The notes beneath the pieces were generated by a model, which was not told where the DNA came from, did not search any database, and saw only the letters and a list, made by a program, of their open reading frames with translations. Shown here piece after piece: positions 49,287 to 53,476 of a stretch of DNA of 64,000 nt. The position numbers and the translations under genes are program-made. Every line of letters begins with the position of its first letter. The first letter of the stretch is position 1. The stretch lies in assembly GCF_025457605.1 (NCBI RefSeq), contig NZ_JAMZFY010000001.1, positions 868,001 through 932,000 of the forward strand. Reading direction: 5' to 3'. This DNA is from Haloarcula laminariae (GTDB lineage Archaea; Halobacteriota; Halobacteria; Halobacteriales; Haloarculaceae).

Positions 49287-50066
49287 ATGCAGGGACAAAA
49301 CCAACAGCAGGCGTACGACCGCGGAATCACTATCTTCTCCCCGGACGGGCGACTCTACCAGGTCGAATACGCCCGTGAGGCGGTCAAGCGCGGCACGGCC
49401 AGTATCGGTATCCGGACCAGCGACGGCGTCGTGCTGGCGGTCGACAAGCGCATCCGCTCGCCGCTGATGGAGCGGTCCTCCGTCGAGAAGATACACAAGG
49501 CCGACGACCACATCGGTATCGCGAGCGCCGGCCACGTCGCCGACGCCCGCCAGCTCATCGACTTTGCCCGGCGACAGGCACAGGTCAACCACCTGCGCTA
49601 CGGCGAACCGGTCGGCGTCGAGACGCTCACCAAGGAGATAACCGACTACATCCAGCAGTACACGCAGGTCGGCGGCGCACGGCCGTTCGGCGTCGCGCTC
49701 ATCATCGCCGGCATCGCCAACGGCGAGCCCCGCCTCTACGAGACGGACCCCTCGGGGACGCCCTACGAGTGGAAGGCCCTCGCCGTCGGCGCGGACCGGA
49801 GCGACATCCGGGACTACCTCGAAGCGAACTACGACGAGTCGATGGCGCTCGACGAGGGCGTCGACCTCGCGCTCGAAGCGCTCGCGTCGGTCACCGAGGG
49901 CGGCCTCTCCCCGGAGGGAATCGGCATCGCGACCATCGACGTCGAGACGGAGACGTTCGGCGAGCTCTCCGACGACGAGAAACGGGAGCATCTGGCGGCC
50001 GCCGACCTGCTGGCGGACCCCGACGCCGAGGAGTCCGACGCCGACGACGAAGACGACGAGGAGTAG
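49287..50066 (+). CDS. psmA: Proteasome subunit alpha
   Basis: The 259-residue subunit forms the outer rings of the 20S proteasome. The N-terminal alpha signature YDRGITIFSPDGRLYQVEYA and the gate region are intact, and GTASIGIRTSDGVVLAVDKR is conserved. The C-terminus has a long acidic tail (about 235-259, Asp/Glu-rich) common in haloarchaea. The ATG at 49287 is 4 bp after the rnp2 stop. Confidence 0.96.
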   Translation: MQGQNQQQAYDRGITIFSPDGRLYQVEYAREAVKRGTASIGIRTSDGVVLAVDKRIRSPLMERSSVEKIHKADDHIGIASAGHVADARQLIDFARRQAQVNHLRYGEPVGVETLTKEITDYIQQYTQVGGARPFGVALIIAGIANGEPRLYETDPSGTPYEWKALAVGADRSDIRDYLEANYDESMALDEGVDLALEALASVTEGGLSPEGIGIATIDVETETFGELSDDEKREHLAAADLLADPDAEESDADDEDDEE

Positions 50067-50126: not shown

Positions 50127-50522
50127 ATGGAGTGTCCACGGTGTGGGGGGACGGTCACGCGCTACCGGCTCGGCGAGCGGGAGGCGATCGGCTGCCAGGA
50201 GTGTGCCTACGTCGGGGTGTCGGTCGACCACACGGCAAAGCGCGGGCCCCCAGAGTCGTGGGACGACGCCATCGACCGGTTTCAGGACCGGGGACAGACG
50301 GTCACGGTCGTGACCCGGGACGACCTCTCCGCAGCGGTCCCCGACGGGGAGTTACCGGCCGAGGAGGAACTGGTCAACGGGGTCGGTAGCGAGGAGAGAG
50401 ACGACGGGGACCTGGTGGTACCCGTTTTCGACGCTGTGGACGATGGGACAGCGGACCGCCGCGATGACGGTGAATCGGCCGACGAGACCCGACGAACGGA
50501 GTCGGCCGACGCGGGCGACTGA
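50127..50522 (+). CDS. Zinc-ribbon protein with acidic tail
   Basis: The 131-residue protein opens with a zinc ribbon, CPRCGG at residues 3-8 and CQEC at about 23-26 (AIGCQECAYVG), followed by a helix and a long acidic, likely disordered tail (about 75-131). It may bind nucleic acid or protein; the function is unknown. It follows psmA by 60 bp in the same direction and converges with the salactin-like gene with 31 bp between stops. Confidence 0.72.
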   Translation: MECPRCGGTVTRYRLGEREAIGCQECAYVGVSVDHTAKRGPPESWDDAIDRFQDRGQTVTVVTRDDLSAAVPDGELPAEEELVNGVGSEERDDGDLVVPVFDAVDDGTADRRDDGESADETRRTESADAGD

Positions 50523-50553: not shown

Positions 50554-51582
50554 TCAGTCGTCGGCTTCGACTTCCTCTTCCTCGTCGCCGCCGTGACCCC
50601 GCTCTTCCTCTTCGGAGCGAGCGGCGACGAGCGCACCGCGCGCGACGCTGTACATCGGCTCGTCGGCGTGTTGCACGTCGCTGATGGAGAACGGGATCGA
50701 CGCGTCTTCGAGGTGTTGCTCGAACAGCTTCTTGAACCCTTTCGGCGAGGAGGTGCCGCCGGTGACGACGACCGGGACGTCGAGCCCCTCCTCGATGTCC
50801 TCCTCGTCGACCTCCTCCTGGATTTTGCCGATGACGTAGTCGAGCAGGTTCTCGTAGTAGATGGAGAGGGCTCCCTCGACGCCGCCGACGTCGGTCTCGA
50901 AGTCGAGCTCGAAGTCGTCCTCCTTGATGGACGTGATCTTGTCGACCGGCTTGCCGGTCGCCTGGGAGGCCTGCTCGTCGATCCAGTCCCCCCCGCGGGC
51001 GACGGAGAACTTCATCACCGGCACCGCGTAGTAGGACAGACAGACGTTGGTCATCCCGGCGCCGAAGCTGATGCCCAGGCCGGTGAAGTCCCTGTCGGCG
51101 AGGTCGGAGTAGATGACGGCCATCCCCTCGTTGATGGGCTCGGCGTCATACCCCATGTCGTTGAGGAACGACTGGATGGTCTTCTGGTGATACAGCGTGG
51201 AGAGGTCCGAATCGATGGGGTCTGCCGGCGAGGAGAAGTACAGCTTCTCGTTCGGGTGGTCCGGGGAGCCGACGACCTGCTCGATGATGAGTTTCATCAT
51301 CGGAATCGCGGACTGCTCGTCCGAGGAGAGAATCCCCTGGGACATCGGCCGCCGTGTCTCCTGATTGAAGATGTTCGCGAAGTTTAGGGCGTCGTCACCC
51401 AGCACGTACACGTCGTCGTCCTTCCGGATGTGGAGTACGTCCGACCGGGACAGCATCCGCTCGGCCATGTCGCTGTACTCTATCTCTACGAAGGAGTTCC
51501 GCTGCTGAACGAACACGGTGTCCGACCCGTCCTGCTGTGCCGAGATGAGGTTCATCGTCCCAACGTCGAGTCCTTTTGCCAT
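50554..51582 (-). CDS. Salactin-like actin homologue
   Basis: The 342-residue protein has an actin/MreB-type ATPase core. Phosphate-1 [12 protein letters not shown] (residues 4-15), phosphate-2 [15 protein letters not shown] (168-182) and the adenosine motif [13 protein letters not shown] (271-283) are in order. It most resembles salactin, the dynamically unstable haloarchaeal actin described in Halobacterium salinarum. The extreme C-terminus is disordered, acidic. The ATG at 51582 is preferred over one 11 codons upstream because the phosphate-1 loop then lies near the start and because a TATA (TACATTTATG, 51615-51624) is 35 bp before it. It is opposite in direction to psmA and SBDS. Confidence 0.85.
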
Positions 51583-51614
51583 GAGTAGCTCACTAATATT
51601 TCCCGGATAGACCA

Positions 51615-51624
51615 CATAAATGTA
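51615..51624 (-). promoter_or_regulatory. TATA box of the salactin-like gene
   Basis: TACATTTATG on the minus strand lies about 35 bp before the ATG at 51582, which fits a very short 5' leader. Confidence 0.5.
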
Positions 51625-51739
51625 CGTATCTGACCGATTCGTTATTGTTTTTAGCTGATGCTTCGAGGGCGAAGAGAACCCTGATTGGTCAGGCGTCAGA
51701 TGGCGCGAATCAGCCGAAAAGCGCCGCTATCGCGCGTTT

Positions 51740-52645
51740 TCACTTCCGACCGAGCAACGCCGCCACGCGGTCGAGCAGACTGCCCAGAACCGTCTCCTCC
51801 TCCTTGCTCGCTTCTTCCTCGCGCTTGCGCTCGCGGAGCTCCGCCAGCTTGTTCGTCTGGTCGTCGACCGTCGACTCCGACCGGTCGGTCGTCTTCTGGC
51901 CGCCCTTGACCATCGCCAGCCCCTGGACCTGTTCGTCGACGCCGCTGCGGGTGACCCGCTCGGCCTCGACGTCCATCCCCTGTACGTCCATGTCGAGCTC
52001 GCTCTCGCTGGGAGTGATTTTCAGGTCGCTCCCCTCGTCGCGCTCGACGCCGCCCCAGGTGAGGTCGACGCCCTCCATCGCCGACTCGATGTCTTCCTCG
52101 ATCTGTTCGTCGGTGATCTCGTCGCCCGCGTCATCGTCCACAGCGGCGACGTCGCCGGGCCGCGGCCCCGTGCGGTCGATGTGGTAGGCGACCAGGGCCC
52201 CGCCGGTCGCCGCCAGCAAGGCGGCCAGACCGACGCCGTAGACGAACAGGACCTGGACGCTGTAGGTCGGGCCGGGCCCGACCGCCCAGTTGTAGGGGTA
52301 CGCCCAGACGAAAAGCCCCAGCCCGACGAGCGACACCGCCGAGCCGGCGGCCGCGCCGTACACCGCACGCCTGCTCACCGGCAGGAGCACGACGACGCTC
52401 GACAGCGTCGCCGGCAGCGCGAGCATCCCCACCGCGATGGCCGCCTCGCGGTAGACGAAGTCCGCCGACTGGCCGCCGGCCCCGGTCAGCTGACCGATGG
52501 CGCCGATGACGAACGCGGCGATACCGAACCCGATTCCGGCAAAGAACAGCGCGAACCCGAGATAGACATCGACCTCCCGGTCCGGCTCGCCAATGTACGT
52601 CCGATACCACTCGAAGAGTCGTCCGTCATCGGTCCCGTCTGTCAT
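51740..52645 (-). CDS. Four-helix membrane protein with long linker, CdpA-like (DUF7139)
   Basis: The 301-residue protein has four membrane helices (about 27-50, 63-86, 90-112, 128-150), then a long polar, charged, probably disordered linker (about 155-270) and a short conserved amphipathic C-terminus (ETVLGSLLDRVAALLGRK). This layout matches what I recall of CdpA, a Haloferax division-ring membrane protein linking to FtsZ1, so a role at the cell-division or cytoskeletal site is likely but not shown. It lies directly upstream of salactin, same direction, separated by 157 bp. Confidence 0.6.
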   Translation of the reverse strand: MTDGTDDGRLFEWYRTYIGEPDREVDVYLGFALFFAGIGFGIAAFVIGAIGQLTGAGGQSADFVYREAAIAVGMLALPATLSSVVVLLPVSRRAVYGAAAGSAVSLVGLGLFVWAYPYNWAVGPGPTYSVQVLFVYGVGLAALLAATGGALVAYHIDRTGPRPGDVAAVDDDAGDEITDEQIEEDIESAMEGVDLTWGGVERDEGSDLKITPSESELDMDVQGMDVEAERVTRSGVDEQVQGLAMVKGGQKTTDRSESTVDDQTNKLAELRERKREEEASKEEETVLGSLLDRVAALLGRK

Positions 52646-52750: not shown

Positions 52751-53476
52751 ATGATATCGCTCGACGAGGCGGTCACGGCGCGCCTCGAATCCCACGGACA
52801 GCGGTTCGAGGTACTGGTCGACCCCGACGCGGCACTATCCATCAAACGCGGGGAGTTCGACGGCGAGCTGGAGGACGTTATCGCCGCCGAGGACATCTTC
52901 GAGAACGCCGACCGCGGCGACCGACCGCCCGAGAACATGCTCGAGGAGGTGTTCGAGACGACGGACCCGATGGAGATAATCCCGGAGGTCATCACACGCG
53001 GGGAGATACAGATTACGGCCGACCAGCGCCGCGAGATGCAGGAACAGAAGCACAAACAGCTGGTCCAGCGCATCACGCGCAACGCGGTCAACCCCCAGAT
53101 GGACGACGCGCCCCACCCGCCCGAGCGCATCGAGTCGGCCCTGGAGGAGACGGACTTCCGCATCGACCCGATGGAGCCCGTCGAGACGCAGGTCGACGAC
53201 GCCCTCGACGCCCTGCGGCCCGTGATTCCGATTCGCTTCGACGAGATAACCGTCGCCGTCCAGGTCCCAGCCGACTACGCGGGCAGCGCACAGGCCAAGA
53301 TTCGGACCTTCGGCGAACTCGAACGCGAGGAGTGGCAGGCCGACGGCTCCTGGGTCGGCGTGCTCACCTTCCCCGCTGGGATGCAAAACGACTTCTACGA
53401 CGTGGTCAACGAACACACGAGCGGCGAGGCCGAGACTCGCATCATCAAAGACGAAGACGAGATCGGCACCCGCTAG
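52751..53476 (+). CDS. Ribosome maturation protein SBDS
   Basis: The 241-residue protein is the archaeal SBDS homologue, which removes the anti-association factor aIF6 from nascent large subunits together with EF-2. Three domains are visible: the N-terminal FYSH region with LVDPDAALSIKRGEFDGELE, a helical domain with RREMQEQKHKQLVQRITRNAV, and a C-terminal ferredoxin-like domain (IRFDEITVAVQVPADYAG). In most archaea it follows psmA and precedes exosome genes; here it follows psmA only after the salactin/CdpA insertion and no exosome genes follow. The stop directly abuts the FUN14 gene stop. Confidence 0.93.
   Translation: MISLDEAVTARLESHGQRFEVLVDPDAALSIKRGEFDGELEDVIAAEDIFENADRGDRPPENMLEEVFETTDPMEIIPEVITRGEIQITADQRREMQEQKHKQLVQRITRNAVNPQMDDAPHPPERIESALEETDFRIDPMEPVETQVDDALDALRPVIPIRFDEITVAVQVPADYAGSAQAKIRTFGELEREEWQADGSWVGVLTFPAGMQNDFYDVVNEHTSGEAETRIIKDEDEIGTR

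Follow-up and report, generated by a model that had tools for sequence, protein, structure and literature searches.

An actin homologue and a four-helix membrane protein are encoded next to each other on the minus strand of the window (the whole 64,000-nucleotide stretch of Haloarcula laminariae DNA analyzed here). According to the gene order read in the window, this leftward pair is flanked by rightward genes, psmA and a zinc-ribbon gene on the left and SBDS on the right. The locus raises the question of whether the two proteins work together and, if so, in what way. A preliminary description of this DNA had listed the same arrangement, and all five genes are present where it had put them. 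The features are as follows.

49287-50066, plus strand: psmA, proteasome alpha subunit, left flank (TIGR03633, 354 bits)
50127-50522, plus strand: zinc-ribbon gene, the third gene of the block, convergent to volactin
50554-51582, minus strand: volactin (actin homologue), 342 aa, start ATG at 51582 (PF25216, 449.3 bits)
51615-51620, minus strand: TATA-like TTTATG, about 33-38 bp 5' of the volactin ATG, likely volactin promoter
51740-52645, minus strand: volactin partner, DUF7139 four-helix membrane protein, 301 aa (PF23600, 137.4 bits)
51797-52132, minus strand: conserved tail of the partner, residues 172-283, from alignments; cytoplasmic by inferred topology
52169-52576, minus strand: membrane domain of the partner, residues 24-159, four helices predicted in an AlphaFold2 model
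52751-53476, plus strand: SBDS ribosome assembly factor, right flank (TIGR00291, 267 bits)

The actin homologue is a volactin

The actin had been described as salactin-type, a reading that the profile scores rule out. Its match to the volactin family PF25216 covers profile positions 1-321 of 321 (curated cut-off, 35 bits), whereas its scores against the salactin models PF25229 (12.8 bits; cut-off, 27.1) and NCBIfam NF053533 (18.3 bits; cut-off, 400) fall below the respective cut-offs. The genome encodes a true salactin elsewhere (G000:C1:1988592-1989599, 619 bits), and the window volactin is its sole volactin. No DUF7139 neighbor was present at the salactin loci read. The window protein shares its Pfam family, at full length, with volactin HVO_2015 of Haloferax volcanii. 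The salactin of Halobacterium salinarum is likewise a haloarchaeal actin homologue and forms dynamically unstable filaments (PMC10746226), but it belongs to the other family.

The volactin start was set at ATG 51582 in place of the mechanical GTG start at 51615, because the N-terminus (11 residues) is conserved in relatives and invariant in the alignment. None of the volactins scanned has a predicted membrane segment. A PDB sequence search with volactin gave weak matches alone, to Actin-like ATPase chains (best E, 6e-4) and FtsA. A structure prediction for volactin reached a mean pLDDT of 46.9 and was set aside. TTTAT-type elements placed similarly to the TTTATG of the window were seen by eye, without a shuffle test, in most of 13 intergenic regions, which suggests that in haloarchaea volactin is likely driven by a promoter of its own as well.

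The available sections of PMC10869688, which concern Haloferax volcanii only, describe volactin filaments as dynamic, with tips that contact the membrane and a role in disk formation, and propose unknown volactin-binding factors.

The membrane protein is a paralogue of CdpA-type proteins

The membrane protein matches DUF7139 over positions 2-148 of the 150 in the profile, well above the cut-off of 30 bits, as the preliminary description had anticipated. The predicted model bears out the four helices (residues 24-53, 59-87, 92-115, and 129-159), with 10-residue mean pLDDT values mostly between 84 and 96 in the membrane domain and 70 to 75 at the turns. The tail that follows is mostly predicted to be disordered, with short helices at residues 179-190, 261-283, and 287-298, and the alignments show three conserved stretches in it, DIExAM..V(D/E)LSWGGVE, RSxGVDxQVxGLxxLKGGE, and STVDDQTAxLxELR. 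A fold search of the PDB returned nothing under an E value of 0.001, and a sequence search of the PDB returned no relative. DUF7139 was the sole Pfam match, with no RodZ or ParR family among the hits. Some bacterial actins are linked to the membrane, for example, MreB with RodZ, and others act in segregation, for example, ParM with ParR. The window pair resembles these systems in that an actin filament has a protein partner dedicated to it. It differs from them in that the partner is polytopic in the membrane and bears a disordered tail, which would represent another solution.

The layout of the protein had been likened to that of CdpA, and this likeness holds for the DUF7139 four-helix domain but not for the identity of the protein. 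Besides the partner, the window genome encodes three DUF7139 proteins. One is a CdpA-type paralogue (L003, C1:744770-745219), located about 7 kb from a CetZ gene; the other two are L004 (G000:C2:350899) and L006 (C2:329165), one of which adjoins an Hjc resolvase gene. The partner and the CdpA-type paralogue share the four-helix domain (hhalign E, 1.6e-24), and their alignment ends with it. The CdpA-type tail ends in a Cys-rich segment, YCGNC...PYC...ACEEW, that is absent from the window partner, which has the volactin-linked tail instead; by alignment and profile comparison, that tail is in turn absent from CdpA-type paralogues. In the tree the two groups form separate clades joined by a branch of 3.05, with the partner outside the CdpA-type clade, and the partner gene does not lie at ftsZ1/cetZ2. 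We take HVO_0739 to be CdpA, the haloarchaeal division membrane protein, and HVO_0717 to be ftsZ1. CetZ2 is HVO_0745 (PMC10927574). In genus g32, taken as Haloferax from gene order, ftsZ1 and a CetZ gene flank a DUF7139 gene, which was classed as CdpA-type because this is the expected place of HVO_0739. Given the different tails and the long branch between the groups, the window protein and the CdpA-type proteins are paralogues; that the window protein is CdpA itself is ruled out by tail, clade, and locus.

Volactin and its partner are usually adjacent across the phylum

The preliminary proposal had staked itself on a DUF7139 match of the membrane protein and on homologues of the two genes being neighbors in other genomes, and the second point is borne out as well as the first. 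In 100 of the 105 haloarchaeal volactin loci whose upstream sequence is long enough, the partner gene is directly upstream of volactin on the same strand. The exceptions are L015, in which the partner is downstream of volactin; L068, with no partner within 8 kb; G006 and G013 of genus g18, with none within about 8 kb (in G013 the partner is 79 kb from volactin); and L185, in which the tail is carried by a beta-propeller protein 1.6 kb from volactin. The latter (L185:10059-11435) is a PQQ-type beta-propeller without the membrane domain, ending in the volactin-linked tail. The separated genes of G006 and G013 indicate that cotranscription of the pair is not strictly needed.

The arrangement extends to three other families of the phylum (f13, f15, and f16), where the gene directly upstream of volactin encodes a protein of three or four predicted membrane helices in 11 of 11 loci. 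By open reading frame coordinates, the gaps are 1 to 3 bp in L212, L215, L218, and L220, the genes overlap by 8 bp in L216 and L221, and the gaps are wider in L213 (23 bp), L219 (29 bp), L217 (57 bp), L214 (101 bp), and L222 (168 bp). All three of the upstream proteins scanned against Pfam exceeded the DUF7139 cut-off. When a profile of these proteins was compared with the window family, the alignment ran through both the membrane domain and the tail (E, 1.8e-19); a comparison restricted to the tail was weak (E, 1e-4; probability, 57).

The genus g32 locus L148:4838-8652 has the order CetZ, zinc ribbon, volactin, DUF7139, with a tubulin-like gene beside an actin-like gene. If g32 is Haloferax, this order fits HVO_2013 (CetZ5), 2014, 2015 (volactin), and 2016 of Haloferax volcanii, and HVO_2016 would thus be the candidate counterpart of the partner by gene order.

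Volactin and the tail occur together and move together

Among 341 Halobacteria genomes, volactin and the tail were each found in 208 and both were found in 207. Of 209 genomes with either, 207 therefore have the two together and 2 have one alone, with neither in the remaining 132; the tail count omits one marginal match (G041; E, 8e-4). The two exceptions are G060, whose volactin is what an in-frame deletion left behind when it fused the first part of the partner with the end of volactin (the scar is at L197:6187-6627), and G187, whose assembly is fragmented. The Fisher test gives a P value of 5.7e-94, which treats genomes as independent although they are not. A test within the window's genus is less exposed to kinship among genomes, and among its 32 genomes the partner is present in 22 of 22 with volactin and 0 of 10 others. 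The family distances of partner and volactin are correlated (Mantel r, 0.71), with none of 2,000 permutations as high.

The volactin block lies between psmA and SBDS in the window genome and 10 others, i.e., 11 of the 32 genomes of the genus. In the remaining 21 genomes, psmA directly adjoins SBDS, with no zinc-ribbon gene at this site. The position of the leftward block, with psmA on one side and SBDS on the other, is thus not a matter of chance. The block had been described as inserted in the psmA/SBDS operon; the pattern of presence and absence fits this, but the direction could be either way, the site having been filled or emptied. The other 11 volactin genomes of the genus have a divergent pair on other contigs (volactin, about 79% identical; partner, 34 to 38%). 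In Haloarcula marismortui, the divergent pair is on plasmid pNG700. In the volactin tree as well as in the partner tree, a wide distance separates the plasmid pair from the chromosomal one; this split and the correlated distances imply that the two genes move and vanish jointly. One genome of the genus, G106, contains three copies of the pair (L189-L191), one with a broken volactin.

The zinc-ribbon gene accompanies plasmid copies of the pair, and of 103 evaluable loci, 66 have a convergent zinc-ribbon gene no more than 1.5 kb downstream of volactin. A strict three-gene operon was rejected as a general rule, given the convergent orientation of this gene and its presence nearby in just these 66 loci.

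Giant and viral relatives of volactin

Seven genomes of family f3, along with G136 and G033, contain an additional volactin-like gene; the encoded protein has a long C-terminal extension with membrane segments at its end. The giant proteins recorded are 711 to 1,257 aa long (L223-L229, from G025, G028, G045, G046, G071, G047, and G032, together with L186 and L187). Coiled-coil matches were found in both of the giant volactins scanned, L223 and L186, and no DUF7139 neighbor was found in the stretches read around these genes. The giant proteins are possibly self-anchored actins.

Volactin-type actins also occur in large viral genomes or contigs, in records of up to 595 kb: L181 (LR745208.1), L182 (LR756511.1), and L232-L261. 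They are about 35% identical to volactin, and the two tested both exceed the Pfam cut-off. No partner was found at the viral loci in the stretches read.

Proposed function of the pair

Comparison of the genomes shows, at the level of sequence, that volactin and its partner form a conserved unit and that the tail is specific to this unit. The earlier suggestion that the two may work together is now strongly supported by adjacency, co-occurrence, and joint relocation, and its further suggestion that the membrane protein anchors a dynamic actin filament has become the best explanation, with the anchoring itself deduced. We consider it probable that the partner is a dedicated membrane tether and/or nucleator of volactin filament tips and grips them through its tail. 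The partner would sit in the membrane by its four helices with both ends in the cytoplasm, the short helices in the disordered region of the tail would bind volactin, most likely at a filament end, and the membrane would be the place where filaments are nucleated and/or are held by their tips. This reading draws on the family identities of the two proteins, their adjacency and co-occurrence, the genus test, and the joint relocation to secondary replicons, as well as on the tail being kept on a beta-propeller near volactin in one genome, the fusion of giant paralogues to a coiled coil and membrane segments, and the lack of a predicted membrane segment in the volactins scanned. It also draws on the tip-membrane contacts and the unknown binding factors put forward in the available sections of PMC10869688. 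Against a tether may be set the lack of adjacency in G006 and G013, the apparent promoter of volactin, the viral actins that seem to have no partner, and the mostly predicted disorder of the tail; in addition, the co-occurrence counts lack phylogenetic independence.

Short conserved helices in a disordered tail would suit a regulator as well as a tether, and the partner might instead be a sensor whose tail controls volactin polymerization (capping, nucleotide exchange, or disassembly for cytokinesis) according to cell shape or mechanical state. The available sections of PMC10869688 report that filaments depolymerize shortly ahead of cytokinesis and that volactin levels vary with cell shape, and levels also change under compression (PMC7617734). 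However, the giant paralogues bear membrane segments of their own, which hints that attachment is needed, and we regard regulation in place of attachment as rather unlikely; the two roles are not mutually exclusive. It seems improbable that the partner is a CdpA-like divisome adaptor coupling volactin to the FtsZ ring. Its membrane domain is homologous to that of the CdpA-type paralogue, an FtsZ gene is directly upstream of the pair in two f16 genomes (L217:2548-3735 and L222:2517-3689), and a CetZ gene is beside the pair in genus g32, but the partner is without the CdpA-type tail. Moreover, CdpA-type DUF7139 proteins also occur in genomes that have no volactin (e.g., G019 and G147), and the partner tail is missing there, which argues that this tail is not a general division part.

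That volactin and its partner are neighbors with no common mechanism, for instance, as passengers on one mobile block, is already largely excluded and appears very improbable. The pair is sometimes on plasmids and appears to be gained or lost as a unit, as such a block would be, but the co-occurrence holds at a separation of 79 kb in G013, the adjacency extends over many families of the phylum, and in the loci read the tail is found only with volactin, even when it is on a beta-propeller.

Returning to the tether, an actin held by a dedicated polytopic membrane protein may be older than the haloarchaea and common to several families of the phylum, and CdpA may be a copy of this tether whose exchanged tail shifted it from the actin to the tubulin (FtsZ) system. 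We hold this scenario to be doubtful; if it is true, the clustering of FtsZ, DUF7139, and volactin genes in family f16 would be a relic of the connection between CdpA and the tether.

Implications

Volactin is already published and DUF7139 is already a Pfam family, but no description of the pair was found among published open-access papers. The available sections of PMC10869688 flag the region hvo_2013-2020 as shape-related and describe no membrane partner there. For the attachment of volactin to the archaeal membrane, those sections refer to unknown binding factors, and the partner is the best candidate for the factor that fastens volactin filaments to the membrane. This provides one candidate gene with a defined tail in a genetically tractable model (HVO_2016 of Haloferax volcanii, by gene order). 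Another suggestion from the pair is that two cytoskeletal systems use the DUF7139 membrane domain, each with a tail of its own. Volactin matters for cell-shape change and tissue-like multicellularity in haloarchaea.
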